IMG/VR virus record: IMGVR_UViG_3300004461_000041
Coordinates: 1 to 49,718 of that record
Length of the DNA: 49,718 nucleotides
DNA from: a virus
Direction: 5' to 3' (one strand)
Under the pieces are notes generated by a model. That model was given only the letters and a program-made list of their open reading frames with translations, was not told where the DNA came from and did no database searches. Shown piece by piece: positions 8,801-49,718 of this stretch (positions within the stretch are counted from its first letter, which is position 1; each line of letters starts with the position of its first letter). Position numbers and translations under genes: made by a program.

Positions 8801-9222
8801 AAGGAGAATTTGTAAAAGAAACTTTTGATAGAGAATATAAAGCACAAAACCGTATTGTAGAATTAAAAGAATCGCAATTTATTCAAATAGATGATTTGAC
8901 AATGGAGTATTATGCAAATCTTCTTGATGTTCAAGATAATGCTAATTCTGATATGTTAGATGCAGATAGACAACTTTACAATGACTTAGCGTCAGAACAA
9001 AATCAATTTGCAAATGCAAGAGAAGAATTATTTTTTGGAACAAGAGCAAATTTCACAGGTGCGATATATAAGCAAGTAACGCAAGGAGGTGTTGAAAGTT
9101 TGCTACATAAAGTAGAGATTGTGCAATCAAACACCTTTAACGGCTATAATACAGAAGAAATGGTCGATAGAGTTACTAAAGGAGTGTTAGAAGAGATTAG
9201 AGCGCAGACAGGTGGAATGTAA
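5800..9222 (+). CDS. Tape measure protein
   Basis: An 1140-aa, almost entirely helical protein, the largest helical gene of the tail module, directly after the G/GT chaperones. It has the TP901-type core: a helical stretch with REMGHAFAFTGAESLAAAAR, then SALLLETGEEVSRAGTGLRM and AIAELIPGLDAQGVAQLKLS. Long coiled-coil segments follow (about 480-720). Two hydrophobic segments near residues 776-800 and 812-836 fit membrane insertion during DNA ejection. Its length should set tail length. Start by ATGA overlap; the ATG at 5806 is an alternative. Confidence 0.9.
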   Translation: MRMAKVGAARIFFDIVGQFQAQRLLGDTQAAATVQKAIMMDAYSGIADAFQGMSDMILQTTEEMTNSFLEYEEQLVRVRKFYNASKSEVIEFADAAREMGHAFAFTGAESLAAAARTSQLKGVLKSQLAVIEATRAGLLMAQVGEMETEEGMNRFIALAQQTQFMYGGLTKARFEALDAESQANMVRETSIRTLDQLNTIENSSVATMQDITFVLNQFASQANIAGESIGEMAAMSALLLETGEEVSRAGTGLRMIYQRLGNANNQATKAIAELIPGLDAQGVAQLKLSDVIKQIAPYYNDMESAEKRSLAVSIAGSRHYIKFLKIMENQTRLTELQTAAFQGQYGAIEEFENKQESASFTIQQMSAEIENLQVELGEKLAPAYMTAYRAEEFFLRRAQDILALPGFENIIGGAIGLSNAFDKIVRPVTDMGLNMFNIVIAMKTLQAVQPENMKLIMGAAAKYRQQSAAMMENALVKQSLTDVTILEIQINNRLQETLKRGASQAVTDARVQHSLAKTKLKIETDSLKAAIAKHKIAAEGDGKEALAAQKALVAATNQLERVESKLTNTIARKQVAVDKAIMNDQLEISISAGVVAGKKAREMMEKRSLDVITKTVIEQRELNQGIALHSKIMGEEVVLYKALAPHVLAMLQVKQSEILATQQEAKARLASLHGLKAKKIADGEDITAINLKINETKELVMALGQERAEVSGLIHAHNSHMNSLKSSSMAHMGLGAQIKSTTKDFFANGAAMKSAKAAMMPMTMLIPMITDESKTMSAMMYGMGIMMVGSLVPAFAATTKAIKAAGIAAGMTAGLLSGLTLGLSALAIYEGFELFDTILGDKFASDIGQVAEMNSQLDKTAMLLTDLQGGAAKGEVYEPLFGDTTFEDLKENSQLAVQTIDSIESRIAGLVETRQKLISAGDVEGAAALGSEIASLDTVLDKTQAISEAQKIIASGGSRYQDLGSYTLEKESDLSYNPFVALYRGATDDAYRYHLEYTNLQGEFVKETFDREYKAQNRIVELKESQFIQIDDLTMEYYANLLDVQDNANSDMLDADRQLYNDLASEQNQFANAREELFFGTRANFTGAIYKQVTQGGVESLLHKVEIVQSNTFNGYNTEEMVDRVTKGVLEEIRAQTGGM

Positions 9223-20751: not shown

Positions 20752-22980
20752 TTATACCCACGCTGTCTTATCAAGACCACGTAGGGCGTTTTCGAGAGGC
20801 ATATAGTCCCAAGACATGACCTCGTAGTACGGTTTTACTTTGTCTACGATGAACTTCTGTGCCATCTGTCGGTATCCAATTTTTGCTATACCCTCCAGTT
20901 CAGAAGGTTCGTCAAATGCGATATAATCACCATTCTCATCCAGAGTGCAGTAGAAGTACGAGTCTTTGCGATAGCCCTTGCCCAGATGCTCGTTAGCCCA
21001 CGCCGCACCTGCTCTCGCCTCACTTAACACGCGATATTTATGCAAGTCCTGTTTCAATTTAGCCTTGATAGTCAGTTCCTCTGGGGGGATTTCCTTATTG
21101 ACTACTGCGGAAGTCAATGTACTCAAGAGACCTGTTATTTCAGTCTCCTCACGACCCTCTAAAATACCATCTATGACCGTTCCCATAGCATCCTTCATCG
21201 CTTTAGGCAGTCTACTCTGCTTCATCTCGATTCCTTTGACGTATCGCTCTGGAGCATGATGCTCTCCATCCGTCCATGATACCATACCTGCGTAACGATT
21301 TTTAGCAACTACGAGGAATGAGGACGACCACTTCTCGAACTCGGTCTCGATAGGATACATAGCCTCGTCAATAATCTTCAAGGCCGCTACTCCTTCTTCT
21401 GGTGTTGCGACTTCACACATGATTGAATCCGTATGTCCGTAAATGACACGATGCCCGAGACCTTCCGCAATATCACGCAGTTGTCCCAATGTCTTGCGAG
21501 ACGTGTAGGTGATAGCGGCTGCGATGTCTGGGTGATACATTCCGTACTTAGCATCTCCCGCTACTCCGTACATAGATGCGACAAGCGACTTCGTAGCATA
21601 TTGTAGTGCATCGTATCGCTTTCGTTCTGCGTCGTTATCCGCTTCCTTCATCTTACGCTTGTACCTGTTACGCAACAATGTCATGTTATCCATCTGACGG
21701 CAAAGAAGTCCCTTGCGAGACCTATCGAACTTGATACCATTGCCGCAGTCCTGCGCTTTCTCGCTGTCATCGAGAGTAGTCCAACAAATACCATACTTGC
21801 TAATGTTGCTATGGTACATCGCTTTCACGTCGAAGATACCGATGTCATGATACAGACCCGCAACAGGAGTCATGATGTCTGCGCCTTCGTAATCTACTTT
21901 AGCAAACTTAGGCTTGCTTGGTATCTTCTGCTTGAAGTTCTCATCACGAATAGCAAGAACAGAAAACATCTTGGTAACGAAAGGCGTACTTCTAATATCG
22001 CATTGAACGATGTGTTGCAAAGCAGTAAAGTAACCAAGAACATCGACCAGTTCGTTGAGTCTGGGCAACAAGTCTACGTCCTGTCTTGCGTAATCCAGAT
22101 ATGTACCGAAGTCCGTGTAATACGTATCGTGGCCGTCCTCCAGAGGTACTTTCTTATCACCTAAGCAGAACTCGGATACTGCGTCGAGGGACATAGCAGG
22201 CAGTTGTCCGTTTTTGAGAGTCCATAACTTCTTGAAACCGACCATCAAATCAATACAATTTATCCCTGCTAAAGGCTGACCCCAATCCCCGAAGTCATAT
22301 CGCACACGCTTCATAGGGGATAGTAGGCGAGCATCGAGGTTATTCGCATTAAAACGCTTGAGTAACTGTTGCATATCTGCGTTTATGACGTTCCAACCTG
22401 TAATGATGTCTGGGTCATGCTTGACGAGCATACGTGTAACATCCAGTAGCATATCCCTTTCATTAGCAAAAGCCTTGAACTTCCTATCTCCAGACTCGCA
22501 AGCATCCTTACCATAGGGATGGTTTTTAGCAGGTATCGAATCGTAATGACCCGCTTCGTAATCTTCGTGGTGGAACCATACGTACTCGCCCATCTTCGAG
22601 TCTCGCACGACTATGATTGTAATTTCACCAGAATCTATCTTCCATTCCATATCGAGGAACCAGACTCGGTGTTCGTAATTGTCAAAACTTCTTCCAGAAT
22701 CTGCTAAAACACGATTCTCCCATGCGATATTTGATTCCCATGTATCATGGTTCTTAGCGTATTCGTGCATATCCTGTGTAGACCTAAACTCTCTCGTCGT
22801 CAGAGTCTCTCCATACAGACCCTCATGCCGACCTGCGTCTGCTTTGACATAGCAGTACGGCTGTTTACCTTTGACTTTGTCTATACAACGCTCTCCTTGC
22901 TCGTTGCGATATCGCACGACGATACCGTTTTCTCTTCCTCTCTCGATAATCAGAGAATCACCTTCATGTCGAGTCTCCAA
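20752..22980 (-). CDS. polB: Family B DNA polymerase
   Basis: A 742-aa polymerase with all exonuclease motifs (ExoI FLDMEWK with D110/E112; ExoII TGWNVINAD; ExoIII YARQD 297-301). Polymerase motifs: A, DVKAMYHSN (384-392); B, KSLVASMYG (464-472); C, YGHTDS (514-519), in which the first Asp of the usual YGDTDS is His; the second Asp is kept. A later KNRYAGMVSW and KGIEMKQSRLPK complete the palm/thumb. Replicates the genome with the viral clamp and loader. No inteins. No ATG is available near the start; TTG at 22980 is the likely start, overlapping the GNAT gene by 31 nt. Confidence 0.97.
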   Translation of the reverse strand: METRHEGDSLIIERGRENGIVVRYRNEQGERCIDKVKGKQPYCYVKADAGRHEGLYGETLTTREFRSTQDMHEYAKNHDTWESNIAWENRVLADSGRSFDNYEHRVWFLDMEWKIDSGEITIIVVRDSKMGEYVWFHHEDYEAGHYDSIPAKNHPYGKDACESGDRKFKAFANERDMLLDVTRMLVKHDPDIITGWNVINADMQQLLKRFNANNLDARLLSPMKRVRYDFGDWGQPLAGINCIDLMVGFKKLWTLKNGQLPAMSLDAVSEFCLGDKKVPLEDGHDTYYTDFGTYLDYARQDVDLLPRLNELVDVLGYFTALQHIVQCDIRSTPFVTKMFSVLAIRDENFKQKIPSKPKFAKVDYEGADIMTPVAGLYHDIGIFDVKAMYHSNISKYGICWTTLDDSEKAQDCGNGIKFDRSRKGLLCRQMDNMTLLRNRYKRKMKEADNDAERKRYDALQYATKSLVASMYGVAGDAKYGMYHPDIAAAITYTSRKTLGQLRDIAEGLGHRVIYGHTDSIMCEVATPEEGVAALKIIDEAMYPIETEFEKWSSSFLVVAKNRYAGMVSWTDGEHHAPERYVKGIEMKQSRLPKAMKDAMGTVIDGILEGREETEITGLLSTLTSAVVNKEIPPEELTIKAKLKQDLHKYRVLSEARAGAAWANEHLGKGYRKDSYFYCTLDENGDYIAFDEPSELEGIAKIGYRQMAQKFIVDKVKPYYEVMSWDYMPLENALRGLDKTAWV

Positions 22981-23476: not shown

Positions 23477-23813
23477 ACTTCGAGCGACGACCTCTCGACC
23501 TCTTTTCGATGTCGTGAGTAATCAACCAGTTGTGAATAGTCATGGGGGATACGGCGCAGATACTTGCTATTTCTGCCATCGACATTTCTTCATCGACGTA
23601 TTTCTTTAGGAGCCAATCTTTATCTTTGTAATCGGCCAATTTCTTGCGTATGAATCTACTTAGGTCGAGTTTCATTTCATTCCCACATTCGCATAGCAAT
23701 ATGTGAACCCCATATCCTTCGACATCCTGTTCAATCAATTCTTCGCATTCGGGGCATGGTACTGTTATGACATTCATACCATCACCCACATACTGACTAT
23801 CATTTAAACCCAA
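23475..23813 (-). CDS. Zinc-ribbon / helix-turn-helix DNA-binding protein
   Basis: A 112-aa protein. An N-terminal zinc ribbon (CPECEE at 20-25, CECGNE at 41-46) is followed by a helix-turn-helix (DWLLKKYVDEEMSMAEIASI, VSPMTIHNWLITHDIEK) of the type found in sigma-region-4-like and resolvase-like domains, ending in a basic tail (RSRGRRSK). A likely transcription regulator or DNA-binding accessory. The true start may be Met13 (ATG at 23777); the first ATG overlaps the methyltransferase stop. Confidence 0.75.
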   Translation of the reverse strand: MGLNDSQYVGDGMNVITVPCPECEELIEQDVEGYGVHILLCECGNEMKLDLSRFIRKKLADYKDKDWLLKKYVDEEMSMAEIASICAVSPMTIHNWLITHDIEKRSRGRRSK

Positions 23814-24598
23814 CTATCGTCGGCTAAATCGGGTGTATTGTTCAGCCTCTCGACCATACTTTTTGCTATTTCTGGATAGAGTTCGACCATAGTAGCATTC
23901 CTCCTGCGAGTAATCGCTGCTACGGCTGTCGTACCAGAGCCTGCAAAAGGGTCGAGAACCCAATCTCCCTCATCTGAGCCTGCTAAAACGCAACGCTCTG
24001 CTAACTCCACAGGATACGGAGCCTCATGCCCACTCTTAGATACGGGAGTAATCTCCCATACAGAGAACAGATTAGCCGCATTGTAGTGATAATCATGCGA
24101 TTTAGAGAACATGAATATCGTTTCGTGCTTAGGGATGGGTCTCTTGATGTACGCTTCTGGTTGAGGATATGATTTAGTCTTAGACCAAATAATCTCACTT
24201 CGCAATATCCAACCTCGCTTCTGCATAGCAAAAGCAAATCTCCATCCGACACCAATCAGATTCTTGGGGGCCAATCCTTTGACTCTGCGACTTCCCCATT
24301 TGTTGCGACCTTCTTTGATACCGCCCTCTTTGTAATCAGAACCTGCTCCTCCAGAACCATTGTAGCAATCGCCCATATTGACCCAGAGAGTACCGTCATC
24401 CGTCAGTAGTTCTCGCACGTCATCAAAGGCACTACATAGTTCTTCGATATAATCATCGAGAGAGGAATCACTTCCGAGTTCCTCTTCTGAATCGCCGTAA
24501 CTTCGCATACCGAAGTAAGGAGGGGAAGTAACGCAACAACGATACTTCTTCTTCTCTAAATCGACATTAAATATACTGCCTTCAACTACTTCCCACAT
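23804..24598 (-). CDS. N4-cytosine / N6-adenine DNA methyltransferase, beta class
   Basis: A 264-aa amino-methyltransferase. The catalytic motif IV TSPPY (24-28) comes before the SAM-binding motif DPFAGSGTT (about 216-224), which is the beta-class order. TLWVNMGDCYNG and the VELYPEIA region after motif I also fit. TSPPY is compatible with m4C or m6A. No cognate endonuclease lies next to it. With the C5 enzyme it gives the virus two modification activities. Confidence 0.9.
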   Translation of the reverse strand: MWEVVEGSIFNVDLEKKKYRCCVTSPPYFGMRSYGDSEEELGSDSSLDDYIEELCSAFDDVRELLTDDGTLWVNMGDCYNGSGGAGSDYKEGGIKEGRNKWGSRRVKGLAPKNLIGVGWRFAFAMQKRGWILRSEIIWSKTKSYPQPEAYIKRPIPKHETIFMFSKSHDYHYNAANLFSVWEITPVSKSGHEAPYPVELAERCVLAGSDEGDWVLDPFAGSGTTAVAAITRRRNATMVELYPEIAKSMVERLNNTPDLADDSWV

Positions 24599-37390: not shown

Positions 37391-37981
37391 TCACACATCC
37401 TTACGTTCTTTTAAACCCTCTATCCACCAAGAAGGTGCGTCTACGCCTTTATCCCACTTAGCGAAGTGTGCTTTTTCTCGTAGGTAAAACTCACGATACG
37501 CTTCCACAGCCGTGTATTTGTCCTCGTCAAGTAAGTCCAAGTTGCGATTTTCAGATTGATTTAGGCATCGCATGAACGGAGTTCCTACTTGCTTATCTAA
37601 TCCATTTTCGCCAAGAACTGTAATTACAGGGATGTATTCACCCCATCTAAAAGCCCCCACCAGATGGTCAAGTTGTCCAAATGCGAAATGTTCTTTACCG
37701 TATCTTTTTTTGAATTGACGACAAAGTTCTTTGGTGTGATTAAAGAGCCACCAGAAGTTTCTGTGTGCTTCTGCCGCCCATTGAGTGCAGGGATGATTGA
37801 GGTATCCGCCTTTGTGAGGCTGTCCTCTCGTTGTGAGAGGCATATCTTCGGGAGGTGCGCCAGAGATTAGTAATGCTCCTACGAGCATCTGAACTCCTTC
37901 TACGCACATTTTACTTGAGTGTGAGTCGCAGACCATTTCTGCCGCAGTAACTGGATTTTCGTGCAATACAAATATGTTCAT
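37391..37981 (-). CDS. Conserved phage-type protein of unknown function
   Basis: A 196-aa protein. The N-terminus MNIFVLHENPVTAAEMVCDS, then HSSKMCVEGVQMLVGALL, followed by HPCTQWAAEAHRNFWWLFNH, is a signature I associate with a widespread family in T4-like and marine phages (MNIFVL..P..AA...CD.H..KM). His, Asp and Cys conserved in that pattern suggest a metal or catalytic site. Function is not known to me. Confidence 0.65.
   Translation of the reverse strand: MNIFVLHENPVTAAEMVCDSHSSKMCVEGVQMLVGALLISGAPPEDMPLTTRGQPHKGGYLNHPCTQWAAEAHRNFWWLFNHTKELCRQFKKRYGKEHFAFGQLDHLVGAFRWGEYIPVITVLGENGLDKQVGTPFMRCLNQSENRNLDLLDEDKYTAVEAYREFYLREKAHFAKWDKGVDAPSWWIEGLKERKDV
37397..37415 (-). promoter_or_regulatory. 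Promoter inside 3' end of gene 37391-37981
   Basis: Minus-strand TTTAAAAGAACGTAAGGAT: TATA-like box at 37415-37409 and TAAGGAT (one change from TAAGGAC) at 37403-37397, upstream of the ATG at 37385. It overlaps the last codons of the upstream gene. Confidence 0.6.
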
Positions 37982-40836: not shown

Positions 40837-41379
40837 TCAATCTTCTCCGTACTTAGACTTCTTCAACTTGGCTATGGCCTTCTGTACGTCTCTGTCCTTG
40901 AGTATGCCTGCGTCCAACCACTCTTGCAGTTGCGACTGTATGTCCACAGTCCATCTGAATTTTGAACGCAAGGAATGTGTGCTAAAAATTAAATCTTCGT
41001 AAACGAACAACGTATCTTCGTTCCAGCCATTTACTTTTGCGGTATGTTTTCGTATGATTTTCAAAGCACCGACTGACATACTTCTTCCGTAGTGCTTGAC
41101 CATATGACAGCGAGGACATAGGGATTGTACGCCTGTGAGTGTTTGCGTCATTGTGTTATCGTTATACTCCCATGACTCATGGCATTCGACTGCGTGTTTG
41201 CGACCTTGATTCAGACCAGAGTCTCCACAAATCTCGCAACAGTTGTTTGCCAGTTCGTATCTCCACTTACGTAGTCTGTCCCATCCAGACGGAGGCAACA
41301 ATGCTCGCAGATTTGCGCCCCATGTGCCTGTGGGTATGAGTTCTGCTTGCAGAACTGCTTCATTCTTCTTGCGACTCAT
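40837..41379 (-). CDS. HNH endonuclease
   Basis: A 180-aa protein. CCEICGDSG, HAVECHESWEYN, then SLCPRCHMVKHYGRS form a zinc-stabilised beta-beta-alpha HNH site (His-Glu in VECHE, Cys pairs on each side). A Trp-rich N-terminus precedes it (SGWDRLRKWRYELANN). Could be a homing-type, packaging or defence nuclease; free-standing here. The ATG at 41379 is chosen over 41397. Confidence 0.85.
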   Translation of the reverse strand: MSRKKNEAVLQAELIPTGTWGANLRALLPPSGWDRLRKWRYELANNCCEICGDSGLNQGRKHAVECHESWEYNDNTMTQTLTGVQSLCPRCHMVKHYGRSMSVGALKIIRKHTAKVNGWNEDTLFVYEDLIFSTHSLRSKFRWTVDIQSQLQEWLDAGILKDRDVQKAIAKLKKSKYGED

Positions 41380-41431
41380 CTTCCTCACACTCCTCAAATA
41401 CTTCTTGAATGGCTTTTACAAAGCCTCTCAT
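41360..41431 (-). CDS. Possible mini-protein before HNH gene
   Basis: A 23-aa acidic frame (MRGFVKAIQEVFEECEEDES) with GGAGG upstream and ATGA overlap with the previous stop; it overlaps the HNH start by 20 nt. It may only couple translation. Confidence 0.35.
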   Translation of the reverse strand: MRGFVKAIQEVFEECEEDESQEE

Positions 41432-41859
41432 AGATATTCCTCCAGAGCATCAGCGACTTGTGTCTTGATGTCTTGCTTGTCCAAGACATTTTCTGGATTT
41501 GCATTGCGACCAATTCCATACATGAGTGTTCTGCGAGGCTCTATCTTCGGCTTTCTCTTCGGTACGAAGTGAGACTTAAGTCTCTTAGGTGGAAGGAACA
41601 ACTTCGGTGAAGCCGCAGCAGTTTTCATAAAGACGGGTACGTGGTTGTTGGTACATCTATACGAACCGACACCGACCAATTCCATATCACTTACGCAAAG
41701 TGGGCAGATGCCTGCTTGCGTCTTGATGCCTTCTGGCATGGGAACCATGTATTCTACATGGGATTTGAACGGAGTCCATGCGAGGACATGAATCCAACTA
41801 TCGTTGTCGATGACTCGAATCTGTTTCGCAACATATCCTTCGGGCAAGGCTCGACTCAT
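41428..41859 (-). CDS. Hypothetical protein with zinc ribbon
   Basis: A 143-aa protein. After a beta-rich start (HVLAWTPFKSHVEYMVPM) comes CPLC ... YRCTNNH, a zinc site, and then a basic region (LFLPPKRLKSHFVPKRKPKI). The ATG at 41859 overlaps the upstream stop; the longer frame to 41934 is rejected. Confidence 0.6.
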   Translation of the reverse strand: MSRALPEGYVAKQIRVIDNDSWIHVLAWTPFKSHVEYMVPMPEGIKTQAGICPLCVSDMELVGVGSYRCTNNHVPVFMKTAAASPKLFLPPKRLKSHFVPKRKPKIEPRRTLMYGIGRNANPENVLDKQDIKTQVADALEEYL

Positions 41860-42113
41860 TCTGTTCGCCCCCTCTCCATAGCGAAGAGAATAGCGAAGTA
41901 CATGACGTTGATTCTGTCGCAGAGTCGTATCCATTCGGGAGTTTTGTATTGCTCCGTCATTCCATGCTTATCGTAGAAACGGGACATCTCATCACGTATA
42001 GCGACCTCATTTGCATACGTGTTTATCAAGACTGGTGCTTCCCATGAGTCTGGATGACCTACATGGTTTCCTTCGGAATCAGTCCACAATTTCAGTTGTT
42101 CGGGCATACTCAT
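41856..42113 (-). CDS. Hypothetical protein
   Basis: An 85-aa protein from the ATG at 42113 (MSMPEQLKLWTDSEGNHVGH), helical C-terminal half (CDRINVMYFAILFAMERGR). ATGA coupled. Unknown. Confidence 0.55.
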   Translation of the reverse strand: MSMPEQLKLWTDSEGNHVGHPDSWEAPVLINTYANEVAIRDEMSRFYDKHGMTEQYKTPEWIRLCDRINVMYFAILFAMERGRTE

Positions 42114-42346
42114 TCTATCACCTCTATTGCTACATGGTAGCAATTGTTAGCCATTTGCCATACACAATGCTCATCCATACAGAACAACTCGCCGTAGGCA
42201 TCCTCCTTCAACTCGTCTACATTTAAGATGTGGGTGTTGCAATATTGACATCGAAGATATTCGATTTCTTCGTCAGTCTCATATTCTCCGTCATATATCG
42301 TTCCTGTTACTACGTACTTCGTTTTATTTTCTTCTGTCATGCTCAT
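42110..42346 (-). CDS. Small zinc-binding protein
   Basis: A 78-aa protein with CQYCNTHI and FCMDEHCVW, giving three or four Cys plus His. Beta-rich N-terminus (KYVVTGTIYDGEYETDEE). ATGA coupled. Confidence 0.6.
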   Translation of the reverse strand: MSMTEENKTKYVVTGTIYDGEYETDEEIEYLRCQYCNTHILNVDELKEDAYGELFCMDEHCVWQMANNCYHVAIEVIE

Positions 42347-42777
42347 TCCTCCACTAAGTCGCCCATTGCTTCACGCATGAGGGACTTGATTTGCGATTTA
42401 CTCATCACCTTGCTCTTATCGACATCGGTTGAACGCTGTCTTACAGGCATAGGTGGGAGATTGGTTGGTGCAGATGCAGTCGATTTCCAACGTGTAGAGG
42501 AGCGTCTGGAGCGACTTCCGACTGAGTGGTTACGGCGACTACGTCGTTCTGGACTTCGGTTGCGATTTTTGTAGAGGCTGATTCGCTCCCAGAGGGACTT
42601 ACGCTCCTTCTCGCTGTATGGGGGAATCTCTGTGAGATTGATGTCCTCATCTGTGCCGCCTCTTACGAGTCGCACTACTTTTTCGTCGTGGTCTTTAAAG
42701 ACCATACAGACAGAGTCTGTATTGTTGCTCATGTTTCTTACTCGGATAAATCCGACGCATTCCATATTTGGTTTCAT
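42343..42777 (-). CDS. SR-rich basic-linker protein
   Basis: A 144-aa protein: a folded N-terminal part (MECVGFIRVRNMSNN), then an Arg/Ser-rich tract at about 72-98 (RNRSPERRSRRNHSVGSRSR), then a C-terminal helix (VMSKSQIKSLMREAMGDLV). RS repeats resemble eukaryotic SR linkers and viral nucleocapsid RNA-binding linkers. Nucleic-acid binding is likely; function unknown. Confidence 0.6.
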   Translation of the reverse strand: MKPNMECVGFIRVRNMSNNTDSVCMVFKDHDEKVVRLVRGGTDEDINLTEIPPYSEKERKSLWERISLYKNRNRSPERRSRRNHSVGSRSRRSSTRWKSTASAPTNLPPMPVRQRSTDVDKSKVMSKSQIKSLMREAMGDLVEE

Positions 42778-42920
42778 TGTATCACTTCCATTTGTGCATT
42801 TTCACACGCCTTGCATAGGCAGTCTATGTCGAATCTGAATTCGTTGTCATCGTAGATGTAAATATAATTTCCATAGGCGCAGTCATCGACTGTCATAATT
42901 CTGGTGGCTCGTTCAATCAT
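42774..42920 (-). CDS. Small Cys-rich protein
   Basis: A 48-aa protein: strands with NYIYIYDDNEF, then DCLCKACENA and an earlier DDCAYG, a possible zinc site. ATGA overlap with the SR-rich gene. Confidence 0.55.
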   Translation of the reverse strand: MIERATRIMTVDDCAYGNYIYIYDDNEFRFDIDCLCKACENAQMEVIQ

Positions 42921-43083
42921 TGTTCTCACCTTCTAATAGGGGTCGAGGGTATTTATAGTCATCGTCGTTTTTCATGTTGTCTCTTCGCACACGCTCTATC
43001 TGTTGGTGTGCAAGTACCATGAGTGCGTCGAACGCAAACATACATAGCACGATTGCGAGTACATAGGCTACGAATGTTATCAT
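42913..43083 (-). CDS. Small membrane protein
   Basis: A 56-aa protein: one N-terminal membrane helix (MITFVAYVLAIVLCMFAFDA) and a charged C-terminus, so N-anchored. The ATG at 43083 overlaps the upstream stop. Unknown. Confidence 0.6.
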   Translation of the reverse strand: MITFVAYVLAIVLCMFAFDALMVLAHQQIERVRRDNMKNDDDYKYPRPLLEGENND

Positions 43084-43205
43084 CGCAACCACTCCTGTGG
43101 TGCGCCTTCTGCACAAGCCATGCAACAAACACCTTCTTTAGAAGGTGAAAGGGCCGTTTCTTCGTCATCGAGCATCAGTTTCTTACAAATTTCGCAAACT
43201 CTCAT
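43080..43205 (-). CDS. Tiny zinc-ribbon protein
   Basis: A 41-aa protein with CEIC at 4-7 and CCMAC at 27-31. ATGA overlaps on both sides. DNA for residues about 19-25 carries a perfect 8-bp hairpin (43130-43147). Confidence 0.6.
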   Translation of the reverse strand: MRVCEICKKLMLDDEETALSPSKEGVCCMACAEGAPQEWLR

Positions 43206-43489
43206 TGTGATTCCTCCTCTTCGAGGATGCTTTCCATAACCTCGATGTCTTGTTTCATCATCAAGATGATGGTGCGAATTTCTTCTAACGTGAATCCATC
43301 ATAATCATGCGTGAACGATTCTTTGTAGTGTAAGTTGAATGTACCATCCTCTTTACGAGGATGCTTCATAGTCGGTATGGTATTCGTAGGAATACCAATC
43401 CATGAGTCTATCGCCCATCGTCCAATCTTTTGGTATGCTGTTCTTCTGTGTATGTGTTTCTTCATGTTGTTTATGTACTCGTCTGTCAT
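43202..43489 (-). CDS. Hypothetical protein
   Basis: A 95-aa protein: basic N-terminus (NNMKKHIHRRTAYQKIGRW), then a helix (LEEIRTIILMMKQDIEVMES) and an acidic end. Coupled by TAATG. Unknown. Confidence 0.55.
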   Translation of the reverse strand: MTDEYINNMKKHIHRRTAYQKIGRWAIDSWIGIPTNTIPTMKHPRKEDGTFNLHYKESFTHDYDGFTLEEIRTIILMMKQDIEVMESILEEEESQ

Positions 43490-44052
43490 TAAAATGCCTC
43501 CTTTAGGGGATAGTGTATTGATTGCATCGGGGTCGCTGTAACGAGACCGTCCGAATCTTCGGAGAAGATAAAGAAATTTTTAGGATTACTGGCTCGCACC
43601 TGCTCCTCCGAGAAGTGCTTATGCCAGTATCTCTCTGCATGGTCGCCCACTTGAGGGAAATAATCGTTCAAGTCAGGCCACCATCTGTCTCTACGTGTGT
43701 ATTTCGCAGGGTTGGCCTCTGGTACTGCTATTACCCACATATGCGAGTCTCCGTTTCCCGCCCAGTTGTGTTTTTCGCAAGAGCCGAAGTAAATTGTACC
43801 ATCAATAGATGAGGTTAGTGGTTTTAGTAGATGTAACTTATCTCCTACACATCTCGGACAACGTGAAGCAGGTAGGTTGTAATGACGCACCTTCGACTTG
43901 AGTTTCTCATCCCAAGTCTCCATTTTGCCTCTATGAACCATAGGTTCACCATGAAAATAAACGGACTTTTCCATCTCGTACTCGCCTTCTCGCAACTGCA
44001 TGATTTCCTGTGGGATTCGAGAGTCATCGTAGGTTTGGTATGTACCAGTCAT
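43489..44052 (-). CDS. Hypothetical protein with zinc site
   Basis: A 187-aa protein. ASRCPRCVGDKLHLL and GSCEKHNWAGNGDSHMWV give Cys-Cys and Cys-His pairs. The rest is Trp/Tyr-rich (RRDRWWPDLNDYFPQ). Not recognised. Confidence 0.6.
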   Translation of the reverse strand: MTGTYQTYDDSRIPQEIMQLREGEYEMEKSVYFHGEPMVHRGKMETWDEKLKSKVRHYNLPASRCPRCVGDKLHLLKPLTSSIDGTIYFGSCEKHNWAGNGDSHMWVIAVPEANPAKYTRRDRWWPDLNDYFPQVGDHAERYWHKHFSEEQVRASNPKNFFIFSEDSDGLVTATPMQSIHYPLKEAF

Positions 44053-44273
44053 TCTTCCACCCCCAAAACTTGTTTTGGGTCTAACTCGATTGTCAATTCC
44101 GTAGGCATGGAGTCATGTAGTGCAAGGAACTGTTGGATGACTTTGTCAATCATCTCATGTTGCTCTTGGTCGTTCATGTCCTTCGGATTCGGTGCGAGAA
44201 TAACGAAAATTTCGACTTGCTTTTCTCTGGTTTCTGCTTTGATATTCCATATCACTTCTTGTTTCATTGGCAT
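44049..44273 (-). CDS. Small hypothetical protein
   Basis: A 74-aa protein (MPMKQEVIWNIKAETREKQV) with alternating strands and helices and an acidic end. Overlaps both neighbours. The DNA has a perfect 8-bp hairpin near its 3' end (44062-44079). Confidence 0.55.
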   Translation of the reverse strand: MPMKQEVIWNIKAETREKQVEIFVILAPNPKDMNDQEQHEMIDKVIQQFLALHDSMPTELTIELDPKQVLGVEE

Positions 44274-44419
44274 TCCTCCATTCGCATATCTTCCTTTAGG
44301 AAGAGGTCTGTTCTGATTTTGTTGTTTCGCAAGTCTGACTTCGTGTGGTCATAGTCGATATTATCGAGCATTCTCCACGTTCTGTTGCCTGTCTTTGTTT
44401 TCCTGTATGTTTTTCCCAT
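44264..44419 (-). CDS. Small basic hypothetical protein
   Basis: A 51-aa protein (MGKTYRKTKTGNRTWRMLDN) from the ATG at 44419, just after the CobT-like stop. Basic N-terminus, acidic C-terminus. Unknown. Confidence 0.55.
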   Translation of the reverse strand: MGKTYRKTKTGNRTWRMLDNIDYDHTKSDLRNNKIRTDLFLKEDMRMEECQ

Positions 44420-44424
44420 ATGTA

Positions 44425-45351
44425 TCACTCCTCTGTCGCTTGTGTCCATGCTGTTATTGCTTGAATGACATCTTCGATGCCATCCTTGATTGCTTGTTCG
44501 ACTGTTCCAGATGTGGCCTTTCGCATTACGTGTGCCTTGTCAAGACCGATGACGTTGCAAACATCAGCACCTTCGGTTGGATTCAAGTCTCTCGCAGAGC
44601 CTAAGTGTGATGCTGCATCGCCGTGAGTAGCCCACATTGCAAACATTCCACTTCGGAAGAACCACGAAGAACCTCCAGATGCTGCGATAGCCTCGTTAAG
44701 AGGCTCGTCGCCTGCTTTGAGTTGTACTGCTGCTATGCAGTTTTTAGTGCCGTTTACGGCAGTTCGGAGACATCCATCGGAGTAGGCATAAGCCCAGACT
44801 TCGACTGTAAAACCTGCTTCAGAAAGAATTTCTGATGCTGCGAGGGCAACTGCTGTTTTTGCGAATAGGATTTCTGGCTTGATGTTGCAATTACCCATAG
44901 TGGGGATGACGAGTGCGACTGCTTCGACTGGAGCCGATGACTTACGAATAGTCCTACGGAAGGTCGAATCGCCGTTTAGCAAGCGAGTTGCATTAACACG
45001 TCCTCGACTGTCTGACCACTTGAGACGACGCTTGAATTCTGATACGTCGATAGAATCGACGAGGTCGGACATTCGCTTTGAAGCGTTTGCGATTTGCTTA
45101 TGGTCATCTTCGACGTAGTCGCCAAGTAGTGCTGCTCCTTCCAGATTGGTAAGTTTCTTACCGCCTAAGTCCTTGCGACCTGCCCATTTTGTGTCCCACC
45201 TTTCGGTGGCAGGGTTCCATCCCTTGAAGTCTGTTCTCTTAAGAGAAGCCAAGTAATCGCTGACTGCTTGAGGCGAGTGAGCGACTGTGAAGTGAGCATG
45301 AAGCCCATTGTTGTGAGGAGACTTGTAAGTGCCTTTGTCTATTCCGTACAT
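44425..45351 (-). CDS. CobT-like VWA-type protein
   Basis: A 308-aa protein directly downstream of a CobS-like ATPase. FKRRLKWSDSRGRVNATRLL, then PVEAVALVIPTMGNCNIKPE, ILFAKTAVALAASEILSEAG and FTVEVWAYAYSDG match the phage CobT/VWA pattern, with a strand, a degenerate MIDAS-like loop (PTMGNC), a helix and a strand. Such pairs are metal-chelatase-like machines of unknown role in viruses. The C-terminus carries an Asp/Asn-rich helix pair. Confidence 0.65.
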   Translation of the reverse strand: MYGIDKGTYKSPHNNGLHAHFTVAHSPQAVSDYLASLKRTDFKGWNPATERWDTKWAGRKDLGGKKLTNLEGAALLGDYVEDDHKQIANASKRMSDLVDSIDVSEFKRRLKWSDSRGRVNATRLLNGDSTFRRTIRKSSAPVEAVALVIPTMGNCNIKPEILFAKTAVALAASEILSEAGFTVEVWAYAYSDGCLRTAVNGTKNCIAAVQLKAGDEPLNEAIAASGGSSWFFRSGMFAMWATHGDAASHLGSARDLNPTEGADVCNVIGLDKAHVMRKATSGTVEQAIKDGIEDVIQAITAWTQATEE

Positions 45352-45388
45352 AATATTTCAACTCCGTTGATACCTGCTAATCTCCGAC

Positions 45389-46774
45389 TCAAGCCGCCCC
45401 ACCATTGGAAATGGTTCCGTCGATGAATGTCTTGTCGTAACCTATGGTTCGCAAGTCCTTCTCGTTCCAATCAGCAAGTGAAACTTGGCGAATCTTTTCC
45501 ATGTTCCACTTGAGGATGTGCTTCTGCTTCCAAGCAGTCTGCATATGTCGAGGGCTGATGATTCGACCAACTAAGTTGGCTTCGGTGGCTTTGCGACGAA
45601 CTTCATGGAAGAAGTTGGTAATTTCATCATCAGAGATGAGTTGGCGTTCAAAGGCCATGTCGTAACCCCAATGGAGGATACCTCCAGCGAATCGGTTGAG
45701 AGTAGCACCGTCAAGAACTTCTGCGGCTGAGTAGGGGCCACGTCCCTTGCCTTGCCCAAGAGTATTTGCTGTGCAAAGAATAAACAAATCTGGAGAACGG
45801 TTGATAACCGTACCGTCTGGCATACTCCAAGTCTCGTTGGCTAAAGCCATGTTCGCTGCAACTGCTGTGCCCCCCATGAGTCTGTCGAATTCGTCAAAGA
45901 CGAGAACTCCGCCATCACGGTATGTCTTGACTGCTTCGGTAACTCTGTGGTTCTCTGAACCATCAGATACATTGGGTATCATCGGACCGACTATGTCGGA
46001 AGGCATCATTTCGTTGTGGCAAGAAACAATAGTGAAACGTACCGTTTCAGGAGTTGCGAATCCACCAACTTCCTTCGGAAGGGCTTTGAGGGTATCAAAG
46101 ACCTGCTTTGCAGCGAATGTTTTGCCACTTCCCGCAGGTCCGACTGCAAGGGAATTAGTACGAATTTGTCCCATCTCAAGGAGATGGTCAAAGGCAGGAT
46201 GGGAGAGTCCGACTTCGACCTCTGGTGTATCACCGATTGGCTTAATGACCAAAGGTCGAGGAATCGCAAGTTGAGACAATCCATCGGAGATGGAAGCATC
46301 GACGTGTTCAGCGACCATCTCGATGAGATGGGGAGCGATAAGTCCTGCAAGGACTCCGCCTTCTGCTGTCTTTTCTCCAACGGAGAAAGTAGGAGCAGGC
46401 TTCTTCTTAGGAACCTTTGGTTCTGCTTTCTTCTCCGAAGGAGGAGGAGTAGGCTTCTTCTTCTCCGAAGGAGGAGGAGTGTCGCCGTCAGTACCTAAGA
46501 AAAGTATCTTTTCTTTGTCGGTTAGGTTTCTTTGGATGACTACGTCAGTTTCTGGGTTAGCATCGAGGTGAATTTGCACACAATCGCTGTGTATCCAGAC
46601 ATTTTTGCGAGAACCGCCAAAGCGGTTTTTGACTGCAACGACAGCAGATTTCGGGGCTTTGCCACGAATTTCTTCGCCACAAACCTTACAGGTTGAGTCA
46701 AAGTTGGCATTCTTGGTGGCTAAGCCAATTCGGCGTAGGGCTTGGTTCTTCGGTGTTTGTTTCGACATATTCAT
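45389..46774 (-). CDS. CobS/MoxR-like AAA+ ATPase
   Basis: A 461-aa ATPase. An N-terminal zinc finger (CKVCGEEIRGKAPKS ... WIHSDC) is followed by a Pro/Lys linker at about 95-130 containing two PPPSEKK repeats. Then Walker A GPAGSGKTF (about 211-219), Walker B GGVLVFDEFDRL (about 286-293), sensor 1 FILCTANTLGQG and a C-terminal helical lid. The family remodels proteins together with a VWA partner, here the downstream CobT-like gene. ATGA overlap with the upstream gene. Confidence 0.88.
   Translation of the reverse strand: MNMSKQTPKNQALRRIGLATKNANFDSTCKVCGEEIRGKAPKSAVVAVKNRFGGSRKNVWIHSDCVQIHLDANPETDVVIQRNLTDKEKILFLGTDGDTPPPSEKKKPTPPPSEKKAEPKVPKKKPAPTFSVGEKTAEGGVLAGLIAPHLIEMVAEHVDASISDGLSQLAIPRPLVIKPIGDTPEVEVGLSHPAFDHLLEMGQIRTNSLAVGPAGSGKTFAAKQVFDTLKALPKEVGGFATPETVRFTIVSCHNEMMPSDIVGPMIPNVSDGSENHRVTEAVKTYRDGGVLVFDEFDRLMGGTAVAANMALANETWSMPDGTVINRSPDLFILCTANTLGQGKGRGPYSAAEVLDGATLNRFAGGILHWGYDMAFERQLISDDEITNFFHEVRRKATEANLVGRIISPRHMQTAWKQKHILKWNMEKIRQVSLADWNEKDLRTIGYDKTFIDGTISNGGAA
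46428..46480. repeat. 23-bp direct repeat in CobS-like linker
   Basis: Two copies of a 23-bp unit (46428-46450 and 46458-46480), offset by 30 bp, encode the repeated PPPSEKK linker. An in-frame tandem duplication is the simplest origin. Confidence 0.75.
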
Positions 46775-47037
46775 TCATCTCCTTTGGTGGTTCGGTCTAT
46801 CCCTTCCGATGGGGTTCGTGTATTTATACATTGCTGAGTGAGGTAATCCAAATCGGCAAAAGAAGCATCGCTTCTTGCTGCTTTCAGTACATTTCGTAGT
46901 GCAAGAGTAACAACTTCTGTTGGTACTCCAAAACCTTCCAACAGTCCGATGGACTGGAGGACGACTCGGTTTTCGACAAAGCCGATACTACGTGTGTGTA
47001 GTATAGTACAATTGTTGTTTATAGTATTAGTAATCAT
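46771..47037 (-). CDS. Hypothetical protein, first gene of CobS/T operon
   Basis: An 88-aa protein from the ATG at 47037 (MITNTINNNCTILHTRSIGF). A helical core, LEGFGVPTEVVTLALRNVLK, resembles a HEPN- or HTH-like small domain but is not recognised. The open frame continues upstream to 47433, but those residues are the translation of the hairpin region and are rejected as coding. Ends by ATGA overlap with the ATPase. Confidence 0.55.
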   Translation of the reverse strand: MITNTINNNCTILHTRSIGFVENRVVLQSIGLLEGFGVPTEVVTLALRNVLKAARSDASFADLDYLTQQCINTRTPSEGIDRTTKGDE

Positions 47038-47076
47038 GGTATATTCCCTCTTCATCAAAGATGAGAGGGATATACC
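47038..47076 (-). promoter_or_regulatory. Long hairpin directly before start codon
   Basis: Inverted repeat abutting the ATG at 47037: arms GGTATATTCCCTCTTCATC and GATGAGAGGGATATACC around AAA, 17 pairs with two single-base bulges. In the mRNA it would hide the ribosome binding region; in DNA it could be an operator. Confidence 0.65.
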
Positions 47077-47590
47077 TATATGATTACATACTAACACATT
47101 ATTCCCGAAGGGAATAAACTTTAGCAAATCTATGAATAGGGATTTAGTAATCCTATTCATAGATTCCTGTACGTATGTACTTGCGAGTTTAATTTTCCCA
47201 AATTTCATTCCCCTATGGGGAATGGCACTTGCGATAGTTTCATAACCATCTCCCTTTAAAAGGGAGTCATGCGAGTGTAAAGGTTCGAGAACTCTCTGAT
47301 TTCTGCTTGCAGAAATCTCAGTTCCCTTCTTGAAGGGAACTTGGCGTAGCGGGACTCTTTGAGGGCAGGGGCATGGGCTTCTCTTTTTTGACTGGTGAAG
47401 CCCCCAATCAAGGGAGGAAGATGGGCGATTCATTCATGCTCCTCCGTTGGTGTGTGTAATGGGCAAAGGTGTAAGACTAATCCAATGCAATTCCGAAGGT
47501 TCGGCATTGATGGGTTCTTGCAATTCCTGTATTCGCATATGTGAGGTGTGTTCCTAATCATGTATATCTAAAGTCGATATATTTCAAAAT

Positions 47591-47625
47591 TCGGAGTTTT
47601 CTCGGAGTGGCTCGGAGTTTTCTCG
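47591..47625. repeat. 14-bp direct repeat
   Basis: TCGGAGTTTTCTCG at 47591-47604 and 47612-47625, offset 21 bp (two helical turns), which suits side-by-side binding of a protein dimer. Confidence 0.75.
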
Positions 47626-47979
47626 TAAAATAGAAGATTTATCATTGGTTATTTGAAATGATAAATCAACGTGCGTGTGGCTGATGCGATTCCATCACAC
47701 GAACACCTGCACGATGACCCCAAAGGGGTTCCATAGAGAGTCGGTTTACTTTTTGCACCACCTTTTTTTGATGTCTCTCGTCGATTTCTCAGCCACCGAA
47801 TCGCAACAGTAGACCCCAATACTACTAATCAAATTGACCAAGAGAGATACAAAATCTATGATTTTGATATATCTCTTGAATTGAAAACGATGGACTTGCG
47901 AGCATACGTTAAATTCTTTTGAGAATTTTTCCTGATTTAGAGAATAGTATTCACTAATACTATTCCCGAAATCCACACA

Positions 47980-48240
47980 CCTGCGTGAGCCTGCCTGCAT
48001 CTGCGAGCGTGTGCCTGCACATCCGAGCCTGCGAGTGGGCGTACCTGCGAGTGTGTGTGTATGTGTGTGCGAGTGCGTGGGCAGGCGTGTAGGTGTATGT
48101 ACCTACACCTGCGAGTACGTACCTGCGTATGTACCTACATATACATACATACGTCAAAATCTCGGAGAGATTTTCGCAGATTTTGGAAAAGGAATTAGAG
48201 AATCCTTTTCCTAAAATTACACCTGCGAGGGTATCCCTAC
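47980..48240. repeat. CTGCGAG / ACCTRC low-complexity tract
   Basis: Degenerate repeats of CCTGCGAG, GTGTGTGT and GTACCTAC, including a GTGTAGGT/ACCTACAC inverted pair. ORFs on both strands here translate only to repetitive Cys/Val/Thr strings and are not genes. Possible origin or packaging signal, unproven. Confidence 0.6.
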
Positions 48241-48420
48241 ACCTACCTCCCCGTATGCGCTCATACACCCCCGCTTGCGAGAGCCTACACATAGGCTCCC
48301 GGATTTTCCTTGAACTCGTTCAACGGAAAATGGTAAAAAAACTTAGAGTTTTTTTATGCGCTTAATAGAGGAGTTGAAGTCGAGACTTCAACTCTTCACG
48401 CTATCTTTGACATAGTCAAT

Positions 48421-48469
48421 AAGACAAAGTCGCCTCATGCGATTTTTTCAAGACAAAAGTCGCCTCATG
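48421..48469. repeat. 19/20-bp imperfect direct repeat
   Basis: AAGACAAAGTCGCCTCATG (48421-48439) and AAGACAAAAGTCGCCTCATG (48450-48469), differing by one A. Confidence 0.75.
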
Positions 48470-48487
48470 TACGTGCATATGCGCGAT

Positions 48488-48521
48488 AAAAAAAAGGCCA
48501 ACGGAGTCCTTTAGGACTCCG
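48488..48521 (-). terminator. Intrinsic terminator of the last gene
   Basis: Read on the minus strand: a 9-bp GC-rich stem (CGGAGTCCT / AGGACTCCG, 48521-48502) followed within a few bases by eight T (48495-48488). It lies about 80 nt after the stop of the gene at 48604, the form of a rho-independent or archaeal U-tract terminator. Confidence 0.75.
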
Positions 48522-48585
48522 CCGACCAGTAGGCTCCGACTTAATCTTCGATTACTTTCCATCGCTCTCCATTTTATTCCAGATT

Positions 48586-49694
48586 CAATCTTCGATTGTT
48601 TCCTCAATAAGGGAATTTTTCTTCCAACTCGATTTTCAAATCGAGAGGTAAGTCGCATGAATCCTCTTCGAGGATATTATTCAAGACCTTCGGAATCACA
48701 GATTCCGCCATTTGTCTTGATAATAGGATATTATCATCGTTTTTTCCACCAAAGCAAACTGAAAGTTTGGTTACAAAGTAACCATGACAGTAGTTGATAG
48801 CCTCTTCGAGGCTGGTTTTAGTTACCAATTCCTCCATCAAGATGGAGAATAGTTTTTCATTGACCAATTCAACTCCGTTGAATGTCGGTGAAATTCCTTC
48901 ACGCACGAAATCTCTTGAGAATACAAATCCTTTCAACTCGTTGAAAGTCTGACCATTCAACCACCCTTTTAGGGTGTCCATAGACCGAAGGTCTCGAATG
49001 ACTTCGTCATACCAGTTCTGGAGTTCTTCGATGTTCAAGAACATCGGTTCGTCATCTTCTGGATGACCGAAGGTCAAGAGATAAGATGCATCTCTGATGC
49101 ATCTTGACCAATTGTGGTCGTCATATTTTAAAATATGACGGAGAAGTTGTTCAGATAACAACGAAGTTGTTTGGAGTCGAGTTTCCAATTCTACAACAAG
49201 TTGTAGTGGTATTCCTCTTAGTTGATTGGCAAGCCAATCATCTTTTGCCATGATTCTTGCTAATTTATTAGCAACCTTTGACCTTCGGTCAAGGACGGTC
49301 TTGACATCGTCAAGATACAAAGCAAGAGTTCTCTTGCTAAATTCGACTTCGTCGTTTCGCAAATCTTTATCGAAATCTTCGATTTCCCATTCTTCTTCTG
49401 TAAGAAGAACGTCGATGTCATCGGAGATGGCATCCCAAGAACTGAAAATGTTGTAACTAATCTCTTTTAAGAGATTAGGATTTTCAATCCTTCCAAGTCT
49501 CTGATAAAGGATGCTTGCATCCTTTGTTTCAAGACTATATTCTATTTGCTCTGCAAAACCACTTAGGTTTCCTCCAGATGCCGTCTTTAGACGGCTTAAT
49601 CCGATAACTAAGTTATCGAACCCTCGTTCTTCGTTTTCAATTTTCAATTGTTCGTTTTCCATATTTATTCCTCCTTTTTCAAATTTTCAATTTG
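48586..49694. repeat. Dense array of about 35 distinct short hairpins
   Basis: Perfect inverted repeats, mostly 5-11 bp with 2-5 nt loops, about every 30 nt. Examples: 48628-48645, 48661-48675, 48691-48707, 48719-48735, 48769-48783, 48799-48813, 48832-48847, 48867-48883, 48930-48947, 48962-48976, 49029-49046, 49083-49105 (10 bp), 49119-49140 (22-nt palindrome), 49191-49206, 49223-49240, 49257-49274, 49299-49315, 49321-49338, 49390-49409, 49457-49478 (10 bp, TT loop), 49506-49525 (9 bp), 49580-49595, 49602-49618, 49680-49694. Arms differ from one to the next; loops are often TTC, TT, AA or GAA. Confidence 0.9.
48604..49662 (-). CDS. Hypothetical helical protein encoded by hairpin-dense DNA
   Basis: A 352-aa protein, mostly helical and acidic, with no family I recognise. 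Segments: RGFDNLVIGLSRLKTASGGN, KLARIMAKDDWLANQLRGI, SLLSEQLLRHILKYDDHNWS, FSILMEELVTKTSLEEAINY. The start is well supported: AAGGAGGA lies 7 nt before the ATG, and a terminator follows. No membrane helix, signal peptide or zinc site. Its DNA is packed with inverted repeats along its whole length, so the sequence serves two purposes or has an unusual mutational history. Confidence 0.75.
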   Translation of the reverse strand: MENEQLKIENEERGFDNLVIGLSRLKTASGGNLSGFAEQIEYSLETKDASILYQRLGRIENPNLLKEISYNIFSSWDAISDDIDVLLTEEEWEIEDFDKDLRNDEVEFSKRTLALYLDDVKTVLDRRSKVANKLARIMAKDDWLANQLRGIPLQLVVELETRLQTTSLLSEQLLRHILKYDDHNWSRCIRDASYLLTFGHPEDDEPMFLNIEELQNWYDEVIRDLRSMDTLKGWLNGQTFNELKGFVFSRDFVREGISPTFNGVELVNEKLFSILMEELVTKTSLEEAINYCHGYFVTKLSVCFGGKNDDNILLSRQMAESVIPKVLNNILEEDSCDLPLDLKIELEEKFPY

Positions 49695-49718
49695 AATATA
49701 ACCTCAATAGTCCTCTTC
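49663..49718 (-). other. Leader of last gene and window edge
   Basis: Contains the RBS (AAGGAGGA) and a CAAATT/AATTTG hairpin with a TTC loop. The outer bases could encode the end of another minus-strand gene (EEDY then stop at 49706-49704), but the edge is too close to decide. Confidence 0.4.

Follow-up and report, generated by a model that had tools for sequence, protein, structure and literature searches.

The stretch of DNA analysed here, hereafter the window, is a 49,718-nucleotide (49.7-kb) virus contig of IMG/VR (record IMGVR_UViG_3300004461_000041). Its right part carries a dense island of short perfect hairpins, and the following features were located there.

41000-46770: decaying tail of the island over several genes, 1-3 hairpins per kb (arm at least 7)
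44425-45351, minus strand: F12, the DUF7192 gene, 4 hairpins (arm at least 6) against 0.9 expected
45389-46774, minus strand: F10, AAA ATPase (AAA_5; PHROG 249, CobS/MoxR-like), with coding hairpins
46771-49718: plateau of the island, coding and non-coding, cut by the contig end, placed by alignment to relatives and to contig G010
46771-47433, minus strand: 220-aa open reading frame upstream of the ATPase gene
47099-47117: hairpin TTATTCCC-GAA-GGGAATAA, typical C(GNA)G triloop
47434-48603: island section, mainly non-coding, with hairpins and alternating purine-pyrimidine / TGCGAG-rich stretches
47886-47896, plus strand: lone relict copy AACGATGGACT of a repeat multiplied here in hairpin-less relatives
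47942-47965: hairpin, arm 10, loop CACT
48334-48356: hairpin, arm 10, loop TAG
48371-48394: hairpin, arm 10, loop CGAG
48502-48521: hairpin CGGAGTCC-TTTA-GGACTCCG, typical C(TTTA)G tetraloop
48604-49662, minus strand: island gene of 352 aa without a known family; its 1059 bp hold 27 hairpins (arm at least 6)
49083-49105: hairpin, arm 10, loop TCT, within the island gene
49119-49140: hairpin, arm 9, loop TTAA, within the island gene
49457-49478: hairpin CTAATCTCT-TTTA-AGAGATTAG, within the island gene

The remainder of the plateau and its edge at terL, the terminase gene, lie outside the window on the overlapping contig G010/L018, on which the terL side of the island of this virus was read. In position the island gene corresponds to the island genes called F15 in relatives, although no homology between them was detectable; no family match was obtained for the gene, and its single-sequence AlphaFold model gave a mean pLDDT of 39. 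Neither a tRNA nor an Rfam RNA family was matched.

The original prediction, made from the letters alone, listed 17 inverted repeats between 43.1 and 47.0 kb, and all 17 were found to be perfect where stated, each arm being 6-8 bp long and the gap between arms 0-5 nt. Throughout the window, 70 perfect hairpins (arm at least 7, loop 3-8) were detected, whereas 1-kb shuffles that preserve dinucleotides gave an expectation of 17, indicating that the hairpins go beyond local base composition, the alternative source that the prediction itself had named. Hairpin density stayed at about 0-3 per kb as far as 46 kb and was 7, 8, 13, and 12 per kb across 46-49.7 kb, with 40 of the 70 hairpins in the last 3.7 kb. 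The highest frequency had been placed at 47.0-48.6 kb; instead, density remained maximal to the very end of the contig. The excess within genes was examined by synonymous-codon shuffles (arm at least 6, n = 200 shuffles). The count was 27 against 2.5 for the gene at 48604-49662, 7 against 0.8 for that at 46771-47433, and 13 against 1.7 for that at 45389-46774, none of the 200 shuffles being as high in any of the three, and 0 against 1.5 for the PolB gene (20752-22980). Codon usage does not explain the in-gene hairpins. The 17 listed repeats belong to the tail of the island, in which a codon-shuffle excess was observed for 44425-45351 and 45389-46774. Regular spacing or phasing of hairpins was absent (CV 0.78 vs 0.70 for random), and their coding-phase bias, close to that of codon shuffles, does not separate selection from copying.

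The carriers of the island are probably archaeal, marine tailed viruses. About 20 contigs, drawn from many metagenomes, show the island. It is carried by five TerL lineages and, weakly, by a sixth; in one subclade it is missing, and iteron-like repeats occupy its locus. Among annotated phages no close DNA relative of the window virus was found, and comparison of TerL and PolB with these phages gave only about 21-28% identity.

In the relatives, hairpins form one discrete, one-sided island, and their density steps up at the stop codon of terL. The island starts within about 60 nt of this stop codon, continues as a plateau of about 4 kb at 12-14 hairpins per kb, coding or not, and then decays over 10-15 kb in the direction of the ATPase and early genes. 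For nine pooled islands, the density was 0-0.7 hairpins per kb upstream of the terL stop, then 13.8, 12.9, 13.8, 11.9, 6.9, 4.6, and 3.6 going from 0 to 6 kb past the stop, and it had fallen to about 3 at 9-11 kb and to about 1 beyond 14 kb. Step and plateau were observed in every close-clade island contig long enough to judge, and in most of the lineages tested the edge took up no more than tens of bases; the distant L083 carries a weaker island with its first hairpin at +630. The island spans unrelated genes (AAA ATPase, DUF7192 gene, and others), and their homologues in island-free relatives are at chance level. The gradient noted in the window is the tail of this discrete island, the sharp edge of which lies at the terL stop, outside the window. 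The idea of a gradient held in that density depends on how far the DNA lies from a fixed point, not on any one gene, and failed in that no genome-wide gradient exists.

A genome end had been suggested for the maximum, but in complete or near-complete relatives the island is internal and its decay one-sided; since G004 carries a 105-bp terminal direct repeat and an internal island, no genome end is seen at the maximum. Neither did the maximum coincide with the GC-skew switch, also suggested, the island being near the skew minimum and not on it. In four genomes this minimum was located on the opposite side of the terL stop, 3.4-3.7 kb away from it; for three further genomes, island-free ones included, the values were -2.0, +2.9, and +5.3 kb. 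Over these seven genomes the locus is -3.7 to +5.3 kb from the skew minimum, and the gene strand also switches there.

Several contigs break no more than 100-200 bp into the island, as might be expected if it arose by assembly or amplification. Such an artefact, or base composition, is hardly credible as the source, because the island recurs in some 20 contigs from many metagenomes with hairpins inside intact open frames, is near-identical across data sets (L036/L037, 99.97%), and exceeds both dinucleotide and codon shuffles in its counts. Both proposals are thereby refuted.

Island hairpins have arms of 6-17 bp, and their loops match those of stable single-stranded DNA hairpins, that is, GNA/TNC triloops closed by C-G, and TTTA/TAAA. 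On the plateau, 93% of loops were of 3-4 nt, GNA/TNC accounted for 62% of triloops, and C-G and G-C closing pairs stood at 83:4; the corresponding values were 78%, 38%, and 67:14 for the tail. Outside the island and in hairpin-less genomes, loops of 3-4 nt made up 52 and 37%, respectively, and GNA/TNC 12 and 11%, with closing pairs at about 1:1. Stems were mostly all-or-none, 43 of 698 extending beyond one mismatch against 11 by chance. Stem sequences were freely exchanged between relatives, and even the commonest 9-mers had no more than 4-8 occurrences in 4.5 kb. In the ATPase gene, deep lineages had more hairpin centres in common than chance would give (48 vs 12.2 ± 3.3), and the positions of the first hairpins after terL were conserved.

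Island and tail belong to a long block of co-directional genes and lie on its coding strand, and T runs follow some hairpins, as might be expected if the hairpins acted in transcripts as terminators, processing sites or determinants of mRNA stability. However, wobble pairs were not tolerated, one-sided changes being GT 52 vs AC 50 and single mismatches GT 51, AC 58, and other 208, in agreement with the random expectation of 2:2:8; RNA structure is therefore disfavoured. Loop types were strand-symmetric (TTC 39 / GAA 37; TTTA 42 / TAAA 37), the RNA tetraloop C(UUCG)G was represented by only 4 of 277, and no Rfam match was obtained. A function at the RNA level, largely refuted by the wobble test, the loop symmetry, and Rfam, is thus very improbable.

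The mode of change of stems and loops was then compared between relatives. Compensatory changes of two arms numbered 176, against 32 cases in which both arms had changed and were unpaired. Between near-identical strains, 28 compensatory changes were found against 5 one-sided ones, for which non-stem divergence would give, by rough arithmetic, roughly 30-60. Among 60 changed loops, 10 were exact inversions, replaced in place by the reverse complement, and one of these lies between strains 99% identical. The published marks of template switching are arm homogenisation and spacer inversion, with the spacers ttc/gaa and tcc/gga in yeast (PMC8604942, PMC8794818), both of which are shared by island loops. 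The two-arm changes between near-identical strains and the in-place loop flips thus bear the marks of hairpin-mediated template switching, and the mutational process proposed in the original prediction gains support from these loop inversions and instantaneous two-arm changes.

As judged from these sequence patterns, the reading that we prefer, with confidence evenly balanced, is that the island may be the footprint of template switching at a place beside terL where the viral DNA is recurrently single-stranded. At the island the DNA would repeatedly become single-stranded, the nascent or template strand would fold back, and the polymerase would switch template at the folded hairpin. Imperfect palindromes would then be perfected, one-sided changes corrected, and the loop at times inverted. 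The zone would sit beside terL because replication, recombination-dependent replication, or end processing after terminase cutting starts there, and hairpin density would fade with distance as the young fork stabilises. Hairpins would persist without needing a function, and some may have been co-opted. Replication probably starts beside terL, and we infer an origin at this locus, which is non-coding and iteron-like in hairpin-less relatives; no initiator gene was found for this putative origin. In break-induced replication, template switching subsides after about 10 kb (PMC3039667).

A model of replication start has to make a physical boundary coincide exactly with the end of a gene. Recombination among co-circulating strains can import both arms together, and L029/L030 looks like such a case. 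The shared hairpin centres in the ATPase gene and the depletion of one-sided changes are equally expected under selection.

Selection might keep single-stranded hairpins, or cruciforms in supercoiled DNA, as sequence-independent sites, an alternative that we regard as possible at best; equally tentative are its conceivable roles, such as sites at which an unusual origin is primed or initiated, a region for packaging or condensing the DNA, or DNA-end protection, and the accompanying proposal that density drops with distance because the need drops. Consistent with such an element, the hairpins strictly favour those loops and closing pairs that are most stable in DNA, one-sided changes are depleted, hairpin positions are conserved both within the ATPase gene and just after terL, the island persists through deep TerL divergence, and it takes the place of the iteron-like region that relatives have there. 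On the other hand, the dozens of hairpins have unrelated sequences without regular spacing, their number is variable with a smooth decay into conserved genes, the entire island is absent from one subclade, and no protein reading the hairpins was identified. It is somewhat more doubtful still that the island is a functional sequence-independent hairpin code, in which C(GNA)G and C(TTTA)G hairpins, not a motif, would be recognised by the replication, priming or packaging machinery at an origin or DNA-entry region, replacing the iteron-type region in the clade.

If the template-switch reading is true, the island is a dense natural record of hairpin-mediated switching that marks one spot and direction of the genome, and could serve to map single-stranded viral DNA in uncultured, probably archaeal viruses; a mutational process would then rewrite several genes together with their frames kept open. 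If selection is the true cause, the island represents a structural DNA code instead of an origin sequence.

Palindromes of this kind are already known from organelles, and our literature search found no viral report of them. Selfish short palindromic repeats of the green-algal-organelle type may have invaded the region, which we consider unlikely. The island resembles Volvox organelle DNA (PMC2670323) in its 3-5-nt loops, frequently TTTA/TAAA, and that of Chlorosarcinopsis (PMC7043297) in its loop micro-inversions. However, the Volvox repeats are more than 50% alike and in non-coding DNA, and copies in both algae are related, mostly intergenic and genome-wide, whereas the viral copies have diverse, exchanged stems without a common sequence, as judged from the 9-mer counts, fill island and ATPase genes as well as non-coding DNA, and form a one-sided gradient from a fixed gene end beside terL. 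As to iteron-type origins, the hairpin-less sister viruses carry direct repeats TAAACGAT[AG]GACTGCGAGCC solely between terL and the ATPase gene; unlike such origins, the hairpin viruses keep only 0-2 relict copies, with no initiator identified. Break-induced replication is a eukaryotic repair pathway, and its likeness to the island is in length scale alone. In Nematomorpha mitochondria, perfect inverted repeats of up to 284 bp lie within protein genes (PMC6649704), with concerted arm evolution under kept identity as in the island, and template switching was proposed there; the viral hairpins differ from these long animal-mitochondrial repeats in their short arms, high density, and fixed loop code in a dsDNA virus, and in being confined to a single island that begins with a step and decays in one direction only. 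Quasi-palindrome template switching in yeast and RNA genes (PMC8604942, PMC8794818; transcription-linked, PMC3820800) has in common with the island that arms are homogenised, that compensatory changes span several bases, that spacers are inverted, and that DNA-stable loops are favoured. Those events are sporadic and single, whereas the viral zone is saturated, localised, and stable within lineages.

Between 43.1 and 47.0 kb, where the original prediction had placed 17 perfect inverted repeats (hairpins) with density rising rightward, all 17 were found to be perfect, each at its predicted position. When perfect hairpins with arms of at least 7 nt and loops of 3-8 nt were counted, the window held 70 against 17 in 1-kb dinucleotide shuffles, an excess beyond local base composition, and 40 of the 70 were located within its last 3.7 kb. 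Under synonymous-codon shuffling (arms of at least 6 nt), 27 hairpins were observed against 2.5 for the gene at 48604-49662 and 13 against 1.7 for the ATPase gene at 45389-46774, the observed count being reached in 0 of 200 shuffles for both genes; codon usage was thus ruled out as the source of the excess. The PolB gene carried none, against 1.5 in the shuffles.

The window record (49718 bp, IMG/VR class linear) encodes tail tube and tape-measure proteins, a family B DNA polymerase, a clamp-loader protein, PD-(D/E)XK and ERCC4-type nucleases, a Sak4-like protein and DNA methyltransferases, a gene set indicating a tailed virus whose replisome is of archaeal type; the host is presumably archaeal. 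Identity of PolB and TerL (terminase) to annotated phages was only about 21-28%, and the PolB matches in this range include haloarchaeal viruses. A 2391-aa protein with no Pfam match (9222-16397, plus strand) adjoins the tape-measure gene, and a T4 DenV-like pyrimidine-dimer glycosylase is encoded at 37391-37981 (minus strand). Bases 1-25383 of contig G010 (IMGVR_UViG_3300004457_000113; loci L018 and L087-L088) match window positions 25383-1 at 99.95%, and, judged from this alignment, both are one virus. G010 extends past the left end of the window through terL into 1.9 kb of hairpin DNA, so that the right ends of both contigs converge within the hairpin-dense island without overlap. Together they span nearly the entire circular map, the terL side of the island coming from G010.

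With TerL of a related contig as query, 73 viral loci were gathered, and hairpins around terL split them in two: about 20 contigs carry 10-17 per kb directly after terL, and the others none. In the pooled profile of nine islands, the 8 kb leading up to the terL stop hold 0-0.7 hairpins per kb. The four successive kb downstream of the stop (plateau) hold 13.8, 12.9, 13.8 and 11.9, and the density then falls (tail) through 6.9, 4.6, 3.6 and 3.3 to about 2-3 up to 13 kb and about 1 farther. Most lineages have their first hairpins within about 60 nt of the terL stop; for L033 and L013 the distance is 93 nt. On the TerL tree, the island is present in five lineages of the clade, one of which, L033, was judged on 0.65 kb; it is weak solely in the distant L083 (first hairpin at +630) and missing in one subclade of 16. 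Two unrelated control viruses also lack it. The gene order is terL, the island with a fast-changing acidic gene, an AAA ATPase gene and a DUF7192 gene; the latter two also occur in island-free relatives, with hairpins at chance level. Five contigs (L012, L013, L014, L045, L049) stop 98-189 bp after the terL stop, reflecting either assembly broken by hairpins or real DNA ends. Alternating purine-pyrimidine, TGCGAG/CACATGCG-rich non-coding DNA, possibly Z-DNA-prone, lies between hairpins at window 48000-48150 and L006 2580-2960. The acidic gene was located as follows.

L006 858-2159 and L016 4205-5578, also in L022, L024 and L029: island gene F15, acidic, built of shuffled segments

This gene is hypervariable, being exchanged between strains with identical TerL (L021 vs L022).

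Between relatives, both arms swap stem blocks while hairpin position and loop are kept, as in ATGTGGACATC-GAA-GATGTCCACAT vs ATACCCCTATC-GAA-GATAGGGGTAT. Among aligned pairs, Watson-Crick pairing was kept in 176 both-arm changes and lost in 32, and divergence was lower in stems (0.094) than in surroundings (0.151) and loops (0.169). Near-identical strain pairs, some of which have strains in common, gave 28 compensatory against 5 one-sided changes, 16 of the 28 from L018/L019. Exact inversion accounted for 10 of 60 changed loops, one being a flip from TAAA to TTTA in a pair of strains at 99% identity, and stems were mostly either perfect or missing. In published work, hairpin-based template switching is recognised by arm homogenisation, instantaneous compensatory change and spacer inversion (PMC8604942, PMC8794818), and the island hairpins show the same marks. 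We give about even chances to the island being a template-switch footprint with no necessary function. Selection for the hairpins as a structural element could also give the depletion of one-sided changes, the sharp island edge and the conservation of hairpin positions within the ATPase gene, where 48 centres are shared and 12.2 would be expected; this we consider possible but rather unlikely. That they are selfish palindromes appears improbable.

Loop statistics for 634 hairpins (arms of at least 7 nt) from 14 islands bear on the nature of the structure. Loops were of three nt in 309 and four nt in 277; half of the triloops were GNA or its complement TNC, with C-G over G-C closing pairs at 184:17, and TTTA and TAAA were the commonest tetraloops. 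C-G-closed GNA triloops form exceptionally stable DNA mini-hairpins. The loop bias peaked in the plateau, was reduced in the tail and vanished elsewhere in the same genomes and in island-free relatives, a gradation marking the tail as the same phenomenon and not chance. Loop types were equally frequent on both strands; neither one-sided changes (52 G-T vs 50 A-C) nor single mismatches (51 G-T, 58 A-C and 208 others, the random 2:2:8 ratio) preferred G-T, which argues against RNA and for DNA structure. Taken together, the sequence patterns point to hairpins that form as DNA and stay perfect.

An abrupt rise at the terL stop, followed by decay on one side only, calls for a fixed point of departure. 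The terL-ATPase interval of the island-free subclade is about 1.3-1.7 kb, mostly non-coding, and carries iteron-like repeats, with all core matches inside it in three genomes (9/9, 2/2 and 7/7).

L042 11500-12930, same locus in L031 and L026: iteron-like repeats TAAACGAT[AG]GACTGCGAGCC, restricted to the terL-ATPase interval

This region is a candidate origin of the hairpin-less relatives. Hairpin viruses keep at most 1-2 relict copies, one at window 47886, and the GC-skew minimum lies at most about 5 kb away. In break-induced replication, template switching wanes after about 10 kb (PMC3039667), and the island decay resembles it in fading over a similar distance. The iteron-like locus, the nearby skew minimum and this fading are consistent with an origin or other replication start; terminase cutting beside terL, followed by end processing, would fit as well.

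An N6/N4 DNA methyltransferase (window 23804-24598, minus strand) is 63-67% identical in the strong-island genomes searched, missing or only 30% alike in hairpin-less genomes, and missing in the weak-island G007. The ATPase (F10) measures 454-498 aa in strong-island and 668-921 aa in hairpin-less viruses (L025, L026, L031, L039-L043, L056). Its N-terminus (window 46475-46774, minus strand) carries a CxxC...WxHxxC zinc pattern, and in three lineages it matches zf-PARP weakly, below cut-off, at E 0.005-0.08. Fingers of the PARP type bind DNA breaks or hairpins.

No report of viral or phage hairpin islands was found in the literature searched, and one full-text magrovirus paper mentions neither hairpins nor inverted repeats. 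In animal mitochondria and in the organelles of algae, DNA rich in palindromes has been described, and template switching was put forward to explain it (PMC6649704, PMC2670323, PMC7043297). As far as the literature was searched, a discrete one-sided island covering coding and non-coding DNA, with a DNA loop code and beside a tailed-virus terminase gene, is new.
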